A stretch of 64,000 nt of DNA from Sulfurimonas sp. (GTDB taxonomy: Bacteria > Campylobacterota > Campylobacteria > Campylobacterales > Sulfurimonadaceae). Made by a program: the position numbers and the translations under genes. Shown piece by piece: positions 366 to 60,152 of the stretch (position 1 is its first letter; every line of letters starts with the position of its first letter). The notes beneath the pieces are model-generated. The model searched no databases. It saw only the letters and a program-made list of their open reading frames with translations, and had not been told where the DNA came from. Location of the stretch: positions 1 through 64,000 of the forward strand of contig JAOFSE010000009.1 of NCBI GenBank assembly GCA_028044295.1. Direction: 5' to 3'.

Positions 366-1543
366 GATATACTCACTTTTGTTCCAACACCCTCTTGAGA
401 TGTTATCTCTATCTTTAGATTATACTCTTTGGCAATACCTGATACTATACTAAGACCTATACCAAAACCACCACTACTCTTGTTAAATCTTTGATATCTC
501 TCTTGAATTTTTTCTATATCATCTTCTGCGATACCGATTCCAGAATCCTCTACACTCAGAGAGCTGCTTTCAACTTTGACAATAATCTTTCCACCAATCT
601 TATTGTATTTGATAGCATTTGATAGAAGGTTATCGAGTAGTTTAGATATTTTAAGCCTATCTACATGTAGAGATGATTTTTCTAAGACTGTTGAACTGAT
701 AGTCACTTTCCTTGCAAGTGCTAAAGAGGTAAAATACTCTACTCTCTCTTTTACTAACTGCTCCATATCTACATCTTCATTATTTGATACTATCTCATTT
801 CCAAGGGTAAGATATGTCAAGTCTTGGTAAATATTTGATACGGTCTTCGCCCCTATGTCGATACGTTCTATCTTTTTTAAAAGCTTCTCATCAAGTTTAC
901 TCTTGTCAATCATCTCTATGTTTGCAACAATAGTACTTACAGGTGTGTTTAACTCATGTGTAGTGTCTTTTATGAATTCATCTAAAAGTGTAATGGCATC
1001 ACGCATAGGCTTTAGAAACAAACGAAGCAGTATGTAACCAATCACTAACATAAACAAAAATGTTATAAATCCAAAAAGTATAATCTTCTTTTTTGTTTGT
1101 TTTAACCATTGCTTATCTGCTTTTACTTTTACTACTATGTATTGAGCACCAAGATAGTAAGACTCAGGAATATTAACTAGGTGAATCTCTCCTTTTTCAA
1201 TATAGAAAATTTTCTCTAGTCGTAGTACAGTGTCACTTGTTGAAAATATAAGCTTTTTTTCATTATCAAATATAGCAGAGTCAAAATTCTCACTTCGTGG
1301 GTATGTTTGTGTTTTTTCAAAGTTTACATGTAGAGACTTCAAACTCTCTATAAGCTCTTTAGAATACTTTTGTAAAGTAGGCTTTTGCTCTTGGAGCATC
1401 AAATCTTTTTGAAGCTCAAAATATATAAAAGAGAAAACAGATATGATGATGACTGTTAAAAGGGCATAAAGAGAAAGAAACCGAAATAGTGTCTTTTTCT
1501 CACTCTGCTGAAAATCTATACCCAAGCTTTTTGATGCTAACAA
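359..1543 (-). CDS. two-component sensor histidine kinase
   Basis: Membrane sensor kinase of 394 residues. Transmembrane segments lie at about residues 21-42 and 154-176 with a small periplasmic domain (about 110 residues) between them. The HisKA H-box is THELNTP (phospho-acceptor His about 196), followed by an N box (LLDNLLSNAIKYN), DSGIGI and GFGIGLSI ATP-binding motifs. There is no obvious HAMP domain; TM2 runs almost directly into the H-box. The chosen ATG overlaps the regulator gene by 44 bases; a later non-ATG start just past the regulator stop is possible. Its partner is the OmpR-type regulator immediately upstream. A close paralogue lies at 22043-23185 with the same THELNTP signature. 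Confidence 0.9.
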   Translation of the reverse strand: MLASKSLGIDFQQSEKKTLFRFLSLYALLTVIIISVFSFIYFELQKDLMLQEQKPTLQKYSKELIESLKSLHVNFEKTQTYPRSENFDSAIFDNEKKLIFSTSDTVLRLEKIFYIEKGEIHLVNIPESYYLGAQYIVVKVKADKQWLKQTKKKIILFGFITFLFMLVIGYILLRLFLKPMRDAITLLDEFIKDTTHELNTPVSTIVANIEMIDKSKLDEKLLKKIERIDIGAKTVSNIYQDLTYLTLGNEIVSNNEDVDMEQLVKERVEYFTSLALARKVTISSTVLEKSSLHVDRLKISKLLDNLLSNAIKYNKIGGKIIVKVESSSLSVEDSGIGIAEDDIEKIQERYQRFNKSSGGFGIGLSIVSGIAKEYNLKIEITSQEGVGTKVSISW

Positions 1544-2171
1544 TTTTATCCTTTCCTATAATTTTTCTAAGATCTTTGATATAAGTCCTAAGTGCTGTTT
1601 CACTTGGTGTTTCATCATAAGACCAAAGAGCTTCATAAATACTTTCATGCGAAATAACCTCGCCGTTATGTTGTAAAAATAATTTCAAAAGTTGCGATGT
1701 TTTTACATTTAACTGAACTTGTTTTGAGTCAACAAAGAGTAGATTTGAGTCTGTATCATACTCTACATGTAAATCTATTTTCACCCTTGCACTTGCTTCA
1801 TGAAAGAAGCCTCTTTTTAAAAGACTCTCAACACGAAAAAGTAGCTCTTTTAAAACAAATGGTTTGCGTATGTAGTCATCTCCACCACTATTGTATCCAT
1901 CTTCTAGCGAATCAATGGAGTTGAGTGATGTTATGTAAATTGCAGGAGTTTTAACACCATCATCACGCTTTTGTTTTAGAAGCTCAAAACCATTTAAAAG
2001 TGGTACGTTTACATCTAGTAAAAAGAGATCAAACCGTTGTTCATATATAAGGTCAGAAGCAGCTTCTCCATCATAAGCAGGCACAACTTCAAAACCATTG
2101 TCTTGTAAAAACTCAACTACTGTCTCACTCAGAGTCAAGTCATCCTCTAGTAAAAGTATCTTTGCTTTCAT
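1500..2171 (-). CDS. OmpR/PhoB-family response regulator
   Basis: A 223-residue transcription regulator. The receiver domain (residues 1-120) has the acidic pair E9/D10/D11, the phospho-acceptor Asp at about residue 53 (LLDVNVP) and the conserved Lys in DDYIRKPF. The winged-helix DNA-binding domain (about 130-223) ends with the typical ETALRTYIKDLRKIIG...KKLGYRF pattern. It starts with ATGA overlapping the nhaA stop codon, so translation is probably coupled to the antiporter gene, and it is followed by its cognate kinase. The direct coupling to nhaA suggests control of, or response to, sodium or pH, but that is inferred from position only. Confidence 0.93.
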   Translation of the reverse strand: MKAKILLLEDDLTLSETVVEFLQDNGFEVVPAYDGEAASDLIYEQRFDLFLLDVNVPLLNGFELLKQKRDDGVKTPAIYITSLNSIDSLEDGYNSGGDDYIRKPFVLKELLFRVESLLKRGFFHEASARVKIDLHVEYDTDSNLLFVDSKQVQLNVKTSQLLKLFLQHNGEVISHESIYEALWSYDETPSETALRTYIKDLRKIIGKDKIVSIKKLGYRFSAE

Positions 2172-58138: not shown

Positions 58139-58226
58139 TTCAAAGAGGTAGAAGTTTACCTTTTAATATCTTAATTTTTGGTTTTTATGTTAGAATATTC
58201 TTAAAAAAATAGGATGGAACCCAAAC

Positions 58227-60152
58227 ATGTTAAATCTTGCCTCGTTTATTAAGCTACTGCAAGAGTCTTTTAGAGACCTCTTGCCCATAATACTTGTAAT
58301 CATATTTTTTCAGCTGGCAATCATTCAAACAGTACCAGAAAACTGGCTTAGTACTACTATAGGTTTAGCTATTGTGGGTGTTGGTCTTGCAGTATTTTTA
58401 TTAGGACTTGAAGTTGGGATTTTCCCTGTTGGAGAAGGTCTTGCAGGTGACTTCGCTCGCAAAGGTTCTACCATGTGGATTGTTATATTCGCATTTATGA
58501 TAGGCTTTGGTACTACAGTAGCCGAACCTGCCCTTCTTGTTATCGCAGATAAAGCAGCAGGTATCAGTTCTGGGAGAATCGATGCTTTTACACTTAGAAT
58601 GGTAGTTGCCTTCTCTGTTGGTATCGCTATAGTCATTGGTGTTTGGAGGATTATAAAAGGTCACCCTATTCACTATTACATTATCAGTGGTTATATTATG
58701 GTTGTTGCAGCTACTGCATTTGCCCCAAAAGAGATAGTTGGTCTTGCTTATGATTTAGGTGGCGTTACAACATCAACTGTTACCGTTCCATTGGTTGCTG
58801 CACTTGGTATAGGACTTGCATCAACAATCAAAGGCAGAAATCCTGTTCTAGATGGTTTTGGTCTCATAGCATTTGCTTCACTTACACCTATGATTTTCGT
58901 TCAGTTTTATGGAATCTACGTATACCAATTTATTGAAGCTTCTCAAATTGTAATGCCAATTGCTGCTCATACTGCAGAAACTGCTGCAGCCTTTGATTTA
59001 AGTATCATGTCTCTTATTAAAGGAATACTTAGTGTAGCAACTGATGTTATTCCTATTCTAGCTGTTATCCTATTTTTTCAATATGTTATTTTAAAGAAAC
59101 ATATAGATAATCTAAAAGAAGTTCTGATAGGTTTTGGTCTTGTGATCTTCGGGCTAGATGCTTTTATAATTGGTTTAGAAATGGGTCTCTTCTCTCTTGG
59201 TGAGACAATGGCTCTACAACTTACACAAAATGATAGTGTATTTATCATCTATGCTTTTGCATTTGCCATAGGTTTTTCTACAACCATGGCTGAACCATCA
59301 TTAACTGCTATAGCTAGAAAAGCTAAGGAGATTAGTGACGGAAAAATTAATGACTTTGTTCTTCGTCTTTTCGTTGCTCTTGGTGTTGCTATTGGTATCT
59401 CATTAGGTGCATTTAGAATTGTTAACGGTGGAGAAATTGTTTACTACATAATGGCTGGATATCTATTTGTAATTGTTCTGACTTTTATGGCTCCAAAGTA
59501 CATCATTCCTATCGCATATGATAGTGGTGGAGTTACAACTTCAACAGTAACCGTTCCTCTTGTTGCCGCGCTTGGTCTTGGTCTAGCTACAAACATAGCT
59601 GGTCGTGATCCTCTAATAGATGGATTTGGTCTTATTGCTTTTGCTTCTTTATTCCCTATGCTAACTGTTATGGCTTACGGAATTATGACTGAGAGCATGG
59701 GTATTAAAGGTAAACATGAGCTTCAAGAGATAAAACTAGAAGAATTACAACACGCAATAGAACATGCAAACGATATGGGTCTATCAACTGTTAATGTTCA
59801 TGGAACAGACAAAAGACACTCATACAGAGTTCAGTTCTCAGCTGTACATGTAATAATCCCTATTGATAAAGAACAAGAAGCTATAGACTCTGCAAAGAAA
59901 GCCGGTGCTACAGGGGTTACTGTTATGAAAGCGCATGGTATGGGACTTGAAAAATTAGAAAGTCTATATAATAGACTAGGGGAGAGTCACTCAGATGTCA
60001 ATATGATGTTTATTACACCATCTCAAAAAGTTAATGATATTATCAAAAATGTGATTCATGACTTAGATTTAACTGGAGAGGGTGCAGGTATAGCTTACGC
60101 TTACCCTGTGAGCCATCTTAAAGGTTTAACTCTTAAAATGGATGATCTATAG
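58227..60152 (+). CDS. DUF1538 tandem membrane protein with C-terminal PII-like domain
   Basis: A 641-residue membrane protein. The sequence is an internal duplication: two halves (about 10-250 and 265-500) each with LLGLEVGIFPVGEG / IGLEMGLFSLGETMA, FAFMIGFGTTVAEPAL / FAFAIGFSTTMAEPSL and DLGGVTTSTVTVPLVAALGIGLA / DSGGVTTSTVTVPLVAALGLGLA. Each half has about six TM helices, suggesting a channel or transporter with inverted or parallel repeats. The last 120 residues (about 520-641) resemble a PII-like regulatory domain. The substrate is unknown. Ribosome site AGGATGG. Confidence 0.85.
   Translation: MLNLASFIKLLQESFRDLLPIILVIIFFQLAIIQTVPENWLSTTIGLAIVGVGLAVFLLGLEVGIFPVGEGLAGDFARKGSTMWIVIFAFMIGFGTTVAEPALLVIADKAAGISSGRIDAFTLRMVVAFSVGIAIVIGVWRIIKGHPIHYYIISGYIMVVAATAFAPKEIVGLAYDLGGVTTSTVTVPLVAALGIGLASTIKGRNPVLDGFGLIAFASLTPMIFVQFYGIYVYQFIEASQIVMPIAAHTAETAAAFDLSIMSLIKGILSVATDVIPILAVILFFQYVILKKHIDNLKEVLIGFGLVIFGLDAFIIGLEMGLFSLGETMALQLTQNDSVFIIYAFAFAIGFSTTMAEPSLTAIARKAKEISDGKINDFVLRLFVALGVAIGISLGAFRIVNGGEIVYYIMAGYLFVIVLTFMAPKYIIPIAYDSGGVTTSTVTVPLVAALGLGLATNIAGRDPLIDGFGLIAFASLFPMLTVMAYGIMTESMGIKGKHELQEIKLEELQHAIEHANDMGLSTVNVHGTDKRHSYRVQFSAVHVIIPIDKEQEAIDSAKKAGATGVTVMKAHGMGLEKLESLYNRLGESHSDVNMMFITPSQKVNDIIKNVIHDLDLTGEGAGIAYAYPVSHLKGLTLKMDDL

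Follow-up and report, generated by a model that had tools for sequence, protein, structure and literature searches.

A palindromic word iterated through a Sulfurimonas genome, with different forms among its relatives, as a likely DNA uptake sequence

The stretch of Sulfurimonas sp. DNA considered here (positions 1 to 64,000 of contig JAOFSE010000009.1, assembly GCA_028044295.1; in its full 64-kb length, the window) raises the question of why one palindromic octamer, TACATGTA, should recur along it so often, and for the most part inside genes. Our analysis suggests that TACATGTA is this species' form of a genome-wide iterated word that differs among relatives and that is likely to act as a DNA uptake sequence (DUS) in natural transformation. 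We set out below the excess of the word, its variants in the genus and the phylum, its placement and conservation, and the competing explanations.

The word in the window and in the genome

In agreement with the initial annotation, the window holds 26 copies of TACATGTA spanning positions 662-59852, against a mean of 1.77 and a largest value of 5 in 100 dinucleotide shuffles, and under a second-order Markov model no other 8-mer there is as strongly over-represented. The seven copies of the extended form CTACATGTAG claimed earlier were likewise recovered (0.11 expected under the same model), and the counts then given for one-base variants of TACATGTA are correct for the forward strand. By our assignment of open reading frames (ORFs), 24 of the 26 copies are genic and two intergenic; 19 of the genic copies encode His-Val preceded by a further residue (xHV, mostly Leu-His-Val or LHV) and five encode Thr-Cys (TC), in place of the 20 and six previously reported. 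The individual copies are:

662-669: TACATGTA within CTACATGTAG, histidine kinase-like ORF 359-1543, LHV
1325-1332: TACATGTA, ORF 359-1543, LHV
1764-1771: TACATGTA, ORF 1500-2171, LHV
5225-5232: TACATGTA, ABC-F-like ORF 4585-6420, LHV
6581-6588: TACATGTA, ORF 6426-7133, TC
12845-12852: TACATGTA, ORF 12557-13465, LHV
13199-13206: TACATGTA, ORF 12557-13465, LHV
14540-14547: TACATGTA within CTACATGTAG, RmuC-like ORF 13777-15033, LHV
15052-15059: TACATGTA, intergenic
15157-15164: TACATGTA, ORF 15138-17525, IHV
15301-15308: TACATGTA, ORF 15138-17525, LHV
17221-17228: TACATGTA within CTACATGTAG, ORF 15138-17525, LHV
17248-17255: TACATGTA within CTACATGTAG, ORF 15138-17525, LHV
18628-18635: TACATGTA, ORF 17522-19183, TC
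22839-22846: TACATGTA within CTACATGTAG, ORF 22043-23185, LHV
22861-22868: TACATGTA, ORF 22043-23185, TC
31361-31368: TACATGTA, NFACT-like ORF 30284-31645, LHV
31737-31744: TACATGTA, ORF 31714-33141, TC
33281-33288: TACATGTA, intergenic
38759-38766: TACATGTA, ORF 38439-39494, TC
41190-41197: TACATGTA, Suv3-like helicase ORF 39495-42296, LHV
41367-41374: TACATGTA, ORF 39495-42296, LHV
44450-44457: TACATGTA within CTACATGTAG, ORF 44113-44490, LHV
46811-46818: TACATGTA within CTACATGTAG, ORF 46232-47359, LHV
51862-51869: TACATGTA, GGDEF/EAL ORF 51435-53396, LHV
59845-59852: TACATGTA, DUF1538/P-II ORF 58227-60152, VHV

The whole genome of the window's organism (G000; 1,913,839 bases in 34 contigs) contains 690 copies of TACATGTA and 52 of the reversed control word, which bears out the proposal that this is a genome-wide element and not the signature of a gene family. 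Over 484 kb of G000, 152 of 168 copies are genic, with 101 read as xHV, 47 as TC and four in the third frame, a phase that is thus rare and not, as had been claimed, never used. The initial annotation had named a codon-preserving shuffle as the test by which its claim could fail; 200 such synonymous shuffles do not reproduce the copy number, either in the window (24 genic copies against a mean of 5.97, largest 11) or in the 484 kb (152 against a mean of 36.8, standard deviation 5.4, largest 52), while the control word ATGTACAT is seen 18 times against 14.3 in the same 484-kb shuffle. The effect reaches the proteins: the 484 kb encode 97 LHV tripeptides where composition predicts 18.4, approximately a fivefold excess, with 87 of the 97 encoded as [CT]TA-CAT-GTA, whereas the mirror tripeptide VHL occurs only eight times and VHL, HVL and LVH show no excess. 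The shuffles and the LHV excess together imply that the word is imposed on coding DNA at the DNA level, against codon and amino-acid preference, and has changed proteins. That codon usage or a common peptide could instead have generated the word as a side effect, as the LHV encoded by most copies might suggest, is accordingly rejected: it runs against the same shuffles, against the absence of excess in the permuted tripeptides and against the existence of intergenic copies, and we regard its probability as vanishingly small.

Word classes and dialects among relatives

Whole-genome counts in 60 genomes of the genus Sulfurimonas, with reversed words as controls, reveal a patchy distribution, with 8 to 718 copies of TACATGTA per genome against 11-73 of the reversed control (694 in the complete genome G010 and 682 in G031). 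Other members of the genus carry other words, namely CCACATGCC, with 458+447 copies on the two strands in G055 and 209+202 in G044, and AAACGCAG, with 908+914 in G015, 680+687 in G013 and 669+675 in G053. Using as cut-offs at least three times the control together with at least 100 copies of TACATGTA, 100 of AAACGCAG or 60 of CCACATGCC, the 60 genomes fall into 13 of the TACATGTA class, 13 of the AAACGCAG class, five of the CCACATGCC class and 29 of none, with no genome in two classes at these cut-offs. Two of the three classes, CCACATGCC and AAACGCAG, are thus defined by non-palindromic words, and these are strand-balanced (|z| at most 1.63 in 18 class genomes). A minor second word was noticed in two genomes: CCACATGCC has 8+13 copies in G039 (control 0+1) and 11+8 in G054 (control 1+0).

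De novo counts in the fetched stretches resolve finer variants: G010 favours TTACATGTAA, G046 has additional TGACATGT, CTACATGTAG is the form of G000, G031 and G054, and G055, with just 36 copies of TACATGTA, carries TTCCACATGCC instead; the 14-base TTTCCACATGCCAA was found in four named loci. The related words TTACATGTAA, TGACATGT and TCCACATGCC all keep the core CATG, to which AAACGCAG is unrelated. The stretches of G011, G030 and G047 yielded no strong word by these counts, and the rpoBC stretches (9-20 kb, 40 genomes) were too conserved for de novo word finding. Among 80 named loci retrieved with the DnaB of G000 as query, 16 shorter than 9 kb were left out, and in 24 of the 64 used one or more of the eight words tested exceeds z = 6, or in 22 if AAACGCCA is omitted. 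We gave no weight to this last word, found near dnaB, since it is one-sided and recurs in many loci with dnaB in common. Three words with longer conserved flanks (clearly in L222, partly in L249 and L214) were set aside as local repeats; the words in general show little conserved flank beyond about 14 bases, and dispersed repeat elements were rejected as their explanation.

Several further observations concern the words themselves. CATG, the core of TACATGTA, is under-represented overall in the stretches of G000, G010, G031, G054, G046 and G055 (for example, 1479 against 1997 in G000), though enrichment is strong for words that contain it. In L189, L219, L228 and G015, AAACGCAG, the word of a second class unrelated to CATG, attains a density of about one copy per kb and is balanced between the strands. 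A further word, CTCACGCA, has 37 copies in 53 kb, on both strands, in L220, L224 and L231 (seen in loci only, of which L220 and L224 look like close relatives); on less evidence than the others, it may be another unrelated dialect word. Weak enrichment of TACATGTA, at 54 to 119 copies, occurs in G005, G011, G020 and G045, relatives of G004 and G039, and perhaps represents gain or decay in progress. AGATATCT has six copies in L075 and four in L079 (from G030 and G047) per 20 kb, against about 0.8 expected, and a long repeat of about 46 copies dominates the word counts in the G008 stretches (L178-L181 or L066).

The history of the classes was traced on a tree of RpoB and RpoC from 40 genomes, the remaining 20 of the 60 having been left out (8 without an RpoB match and 12 not fetched). 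Parsimony gives 12 class changes against 17.7 with shuffled labels, and four against 8.3 when unmarked tips are dropped; the changes are fewer than with shuffled labels yet several, which indicates that word classes are inherited but have been switched several times.

Beyond the genus, a sample of 298 Campylobacterota genomes places TACATGTA in a second family, 15 of whose 17 genomes pass the cut-off with 342 to 1,727 copies. The DnaA of one of its members (G303) is 97% identical to a DnaA named Sulfurospirillum, and on this basis we take the family to be Sulfurospirillaceae. Of the genomes in this sample that belong to the family of the window, passes are seen in 4 of 18 from Sulfurimonas and in 1 of 9 from other genera, while none of the 254 genomes outside these two families does so, the nearest being G288 with 91 copies against 21. 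In the same sample no genome outside Sulfurimonas passes the cut-offs for AAACGCAG (nearest G323, 99+91 against 35+50, and G300, 122+117 against 56+57). In viral sequences TTTCCACATGCCAA and its reversed control behave alike, with one copy per stretch among the matches listed.

Conservation, placement and putatively transferred DNA

TACATGTA is kept at orthologous sites among most of the compared relatives that share it. Sites of G031 are identical in G054 in 23 of 31 cases, against 12.8 expected from other sequence windows in the same phase; 14 of 42 sites of G000 are kept in G031 against 7.0 expected, and, in the reverse direction, 14 of 25 against 4.1. The sites are close to all-or-none, with one or two mismatches in 7 of the 42 aligned G000-G031 sites as against 50.8% of background windows, although G031, G054 and G046 tolerate change at the outer base, with deviation mainly at positions 1 and 8. 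When G000-G031 orthologues are divided into thirds by conservation, the density of the word declines from 0.57 per kb in the least conserved through 0.44 to 0.05 per kb in the most conserved. Spacing along G000 is near random (coefficient of variation of gaps 0.98 over 220 kb).

The relative orientation of neighbouring copies is inapplicable to the palindromic TACATGTA, and can be followed only in other dialects. Three inverted pairs of TCCACATGCC fold as hairpins (z from -5.9 to -7.8), one of which, at L209, is followed by TTTTT and so has the shape of a terminator; copies of TCCACATGCC touching non-ORF DNA exceed expectation (13 of 50 in G055 against 12%, and 10 of 55 against 8%). Close pairs of AAACGCAG are inverted in six of seven cases in the main group of loci, and one of the seven is intergenic.

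In a few stretches the word is scarce, or is that of another class. In G252, 20 kb that hold polysaccharide, HipA and Fic genes are free of the word, although the genome count predicts about 10.6 copies there, and nine methyltransferase loci of TACATGTA-class genomes together have one copy of TACATGTA against about 6 expected. Conversely, for the 12 genomes with a full listing of CCACATGCC copies that do not belong to that class, a methyltransferase-family gene is found no more than 3 kb from 10 of 106 copies, where 1.85 would be expected, weak 231-272-amino-acid frames matching PF07669 being left out of the count. This clustering suggests that such methyltransferase genes came from species of the CCACATGCC dialect. 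In G015, a AAACGCAG species, two methyltransferase loci (L045 and L094) were seen to hold four copies of CCACATGCC, the word of another dialect.

The uptake word and its alternatives

The closest parallel lies in the DUS of Neisseriaceae, which, according to Frye et al. (2013; PMC3630211), comprise species variants around an invariant core CTG at about 1,900 copies in 2.2-2.3 Mb. The likeness to that description extends to copies in the hundreds to thousands, species-specific variants with a core (here CATG, in one class), intragenic copies in permissive regions, related genomes lacking the word, and inverted pairs at terminators, which appear here as examples only. The differences from the same account are that we deal with another phylum, main dialects that are palindromic, a second class whose core, ACGC, is unrelated, a lower copy number in the genome of the window (690 copies in 1.9 Mb) and, in G000 and G010, hardly any excess of copies one base off. 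The broader traits of DUS and of uptake signal sequences (USS) are present: one strongly over-represented word (690 against 52; 152 against 37 on codon shuffling), equal use of both orientations by the asymmetric words in 18 class genomes, G068 being skewed, copies both inside and outside genes, and dialects that have a core in common, which is CATG in one class, AAACGCAG standing as a separate core. The USS of Pasteurellaceae such as Haemophilus, asymmetric words with AT-rich tracts, are likewise short, genome-wide and shape the proteome, as does TACATGTA, but differ from it in sequence and phylum. In the same phylum, the CtsM/RAATTY system of Campylobacter jejuni reportedly makes uptake dependent on methylation, with RAATTY as a methylation mark that is not known to be an iterated word; it shares with our case the sequence-dependent recognition of own DNA in uptake, whereas here the word itself is amplified.

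The Neisseriaceae sequences are resembled in the number of copies, in dialects that vary about a core, in placement where proteins are permissive, in some pairs that form hairpins and in the existence of unmarked relatives, and from this we infer, with moderate confidence, a word read by a receptor during uptake and maintained by biased uptake and recombination. We posit that a putative receptor of the competence machinery, on the cell surface or borne on a pilus, would bind the word and, in view of the palindrome, might do so as a dimer; it would admit tagged DNA, whose homologous recombination would spread and repair copies, so that they might build up wherever the protein tolerates them. 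A receptor whose specificity drifted or was swapped would change the word and generate dialects, and were it lost, the word would fade to background level, as may be the case in the unmarked species.

Several observations weigh against this uptake proposal. Genes unmatched in the fetched stretch of a neighbouring species show no significant deficit of the word (p 0.12 to 0.83 in five comparisons), and ComEC, found in 38 of 41 genomes and in all 34 good ones, is present in unmarked genomes too and hence does not discriminate them from marked ones. The uptake sequences known to us from Neisseriaceae and Pasteurellaceae are not palindromic, while the CATG dialects mostly are. From G000 to G046 only 7 of 32 sites are kept against 5.2, hardly above expectation, and TCCACATGCC pairs closer than 60 bases are inverted at chance level (7 of 11, p 0.55). 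In G068 the excess of AAACGCAG, which passes the cut-offs, is strand-skewed (111+30 against 16+22 for the control). One-base-off copies are nearly without excess in G000 and G010, at 0.06-0.07 per perfect copy, and to accommodate this an uptake word would need very efficient recombinational repair, or selection at single sites; in Neisseria, by contrast, one-off copies are numerous according to PMC3630211. Finally, a CATG-specific methyltransferase could matter in some species.

This last point leads to the reading of TACATGTA as a highly iterated palindrome (HIP), on which the word is marked by an orphan methyltransferase and accumulates through selection or through repair directed by methylation. 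The cyanobacterial HIP1 and alternative HIPs generally come with a matching methyltransferase, according to Elhai (2015; PMC4390886), and share with TACATGTA an over-represented palindromic 8-mer at high copy and its replacement by other words in some relatives; the loose positions 1 and 8 of G031, G054 and G046 also recall HIP1 as described there. The near absence of one-off copies in G000 and G010 would fit active repair, and the window supplies a candidate enzyme:

26075-27070, reverse strand: D12-class N6-adenine DNA methyltransferase, considered as a partner of TACATGTA

No restriction gene is found among its neighbours, which include tsaD, dxr, a cdsA-like gene and a histidine kinase gene; it has no match in PDB by sequence at E 0.01, and one of the 120 matches listed for it is named after NlaIII, whose methyltransferase, M.NlaIII, is specific for CATG, the core of the word. 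However, a scan of four Pfam families (PF01555, PF02086, PF00145 and PF07669) in 41 of the 60 genomes, other families not being scanned, found no methyltransferase that tracks TACATGTA. The complete G010, with its 694 copies, has no match to PF01555, PF02086 or PF00145, and G031, with 682, has neither a D12 nor a C5 match, for which reason the window's enzyme is rejected as a necessary partner. Among the four families G010 and G000 share only matches to PF07669, with one common size, weak frames of 231-232 amino acids whose counterparts (231-272 amino acids) occur in 37 of the 41 genomes, marked or not. Unlike in the HIPs of Elhai, then, the word has no shared methyltransferase in the four families, and other species use asymmetric words, two of the three classes not being palindromes; moreover, outside TACATGTA the window shows no enrichment of the hexamer ACATGT, with 12 such copies and a total of 38 against 24.9 expected. 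A passage of PMC8112702 lists 5-methylcytosine motifs for Sulfurimonas denitrificans, none of which is TACATGTA. The modification reading is thus weakened, and among the options that the initial annotation had offered, uptake fits best, while a HIP1-like or modification origin, in the sense of a methyltransferase for the word, finds no support in the four families; we hold the HIP mechanism to be improbable.

We assign a similarly low probability to the words being scattered binding sites of a chromosome-organising or segregation protein. The roughly random spread of copies, their retention at orthologous sites and the scarcity of one-off copies, as if each site were selected, are all in keeping with such sites. 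They sit poorly with the absence of the word, or its replacement by an unrelated one, within a single genus, since parS, matS and Noc sites are stable over wide taxa, as well as with the avoidance of conserved genes and with the foreign words near methyltransferase genes above expectation. Recombination or segregation signals of the Chi or KOPS type, which are also short and very frequent, appear very improbable: such signals are skewed to one strand, as AAACGCAG is in G068, but the asymmetric words are balanced in the 18 class genomes, and the palindromic TACATGTA cannot be polar. We know of no Chi sequence of these bacteria.

HIPs and DUS/USS are known kinds of element, and TACATGTA itself is likely part of an uptake code; as a Campylobacterota dialect of such a code it is unreported in the searchable open-licence literature. 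We found there, to judge from titles and the opening lines of abstracts, no report of TACATGTA as an iterated word of bacteria, nor of an uptake sequence in Sulfurimonas, Sulfurospirillum or Campylobacterota at large. To our knowledge, just two bacterial families are known for self-specific uptake of DNA. A bolder form of the uptake proposal, to which we give about even chances, is that Sulfurimonas and Sulfurospirillum, Campylobacterota of sulfur-based and anaerobic life, possess a third independent DNA-uptake code besides those of Neisseriaceae and Pasteurellaceae, in which words including the palindrome TACATGTA would watermark species, the specificity of the receptor would have drifted around CATG and, in four or more switches on the tree, passed in part to the unrelated word AAACGCAG, and species would mostly trade DNA within their own dialect.

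Why uptake words evolve is an open question, with selection for the DNA of kin and the by-product of a biased receptor as the contending answers. Three non-overlapping word classes, unmarked relatives and repeated switches in a single genus amount to a natural experiment on this question, in which comparison of genomes within the genus could locate the receptor and test whether a change of word isolates species. If the proposal is true, an uptake code would explain a proteome-wide oddity, the fivefold excess of Leu-His-Val, and would offer a practical key for transforming the Campylobacterota of hydrothermal and sediment habitats and those that live by dehalorespiration.

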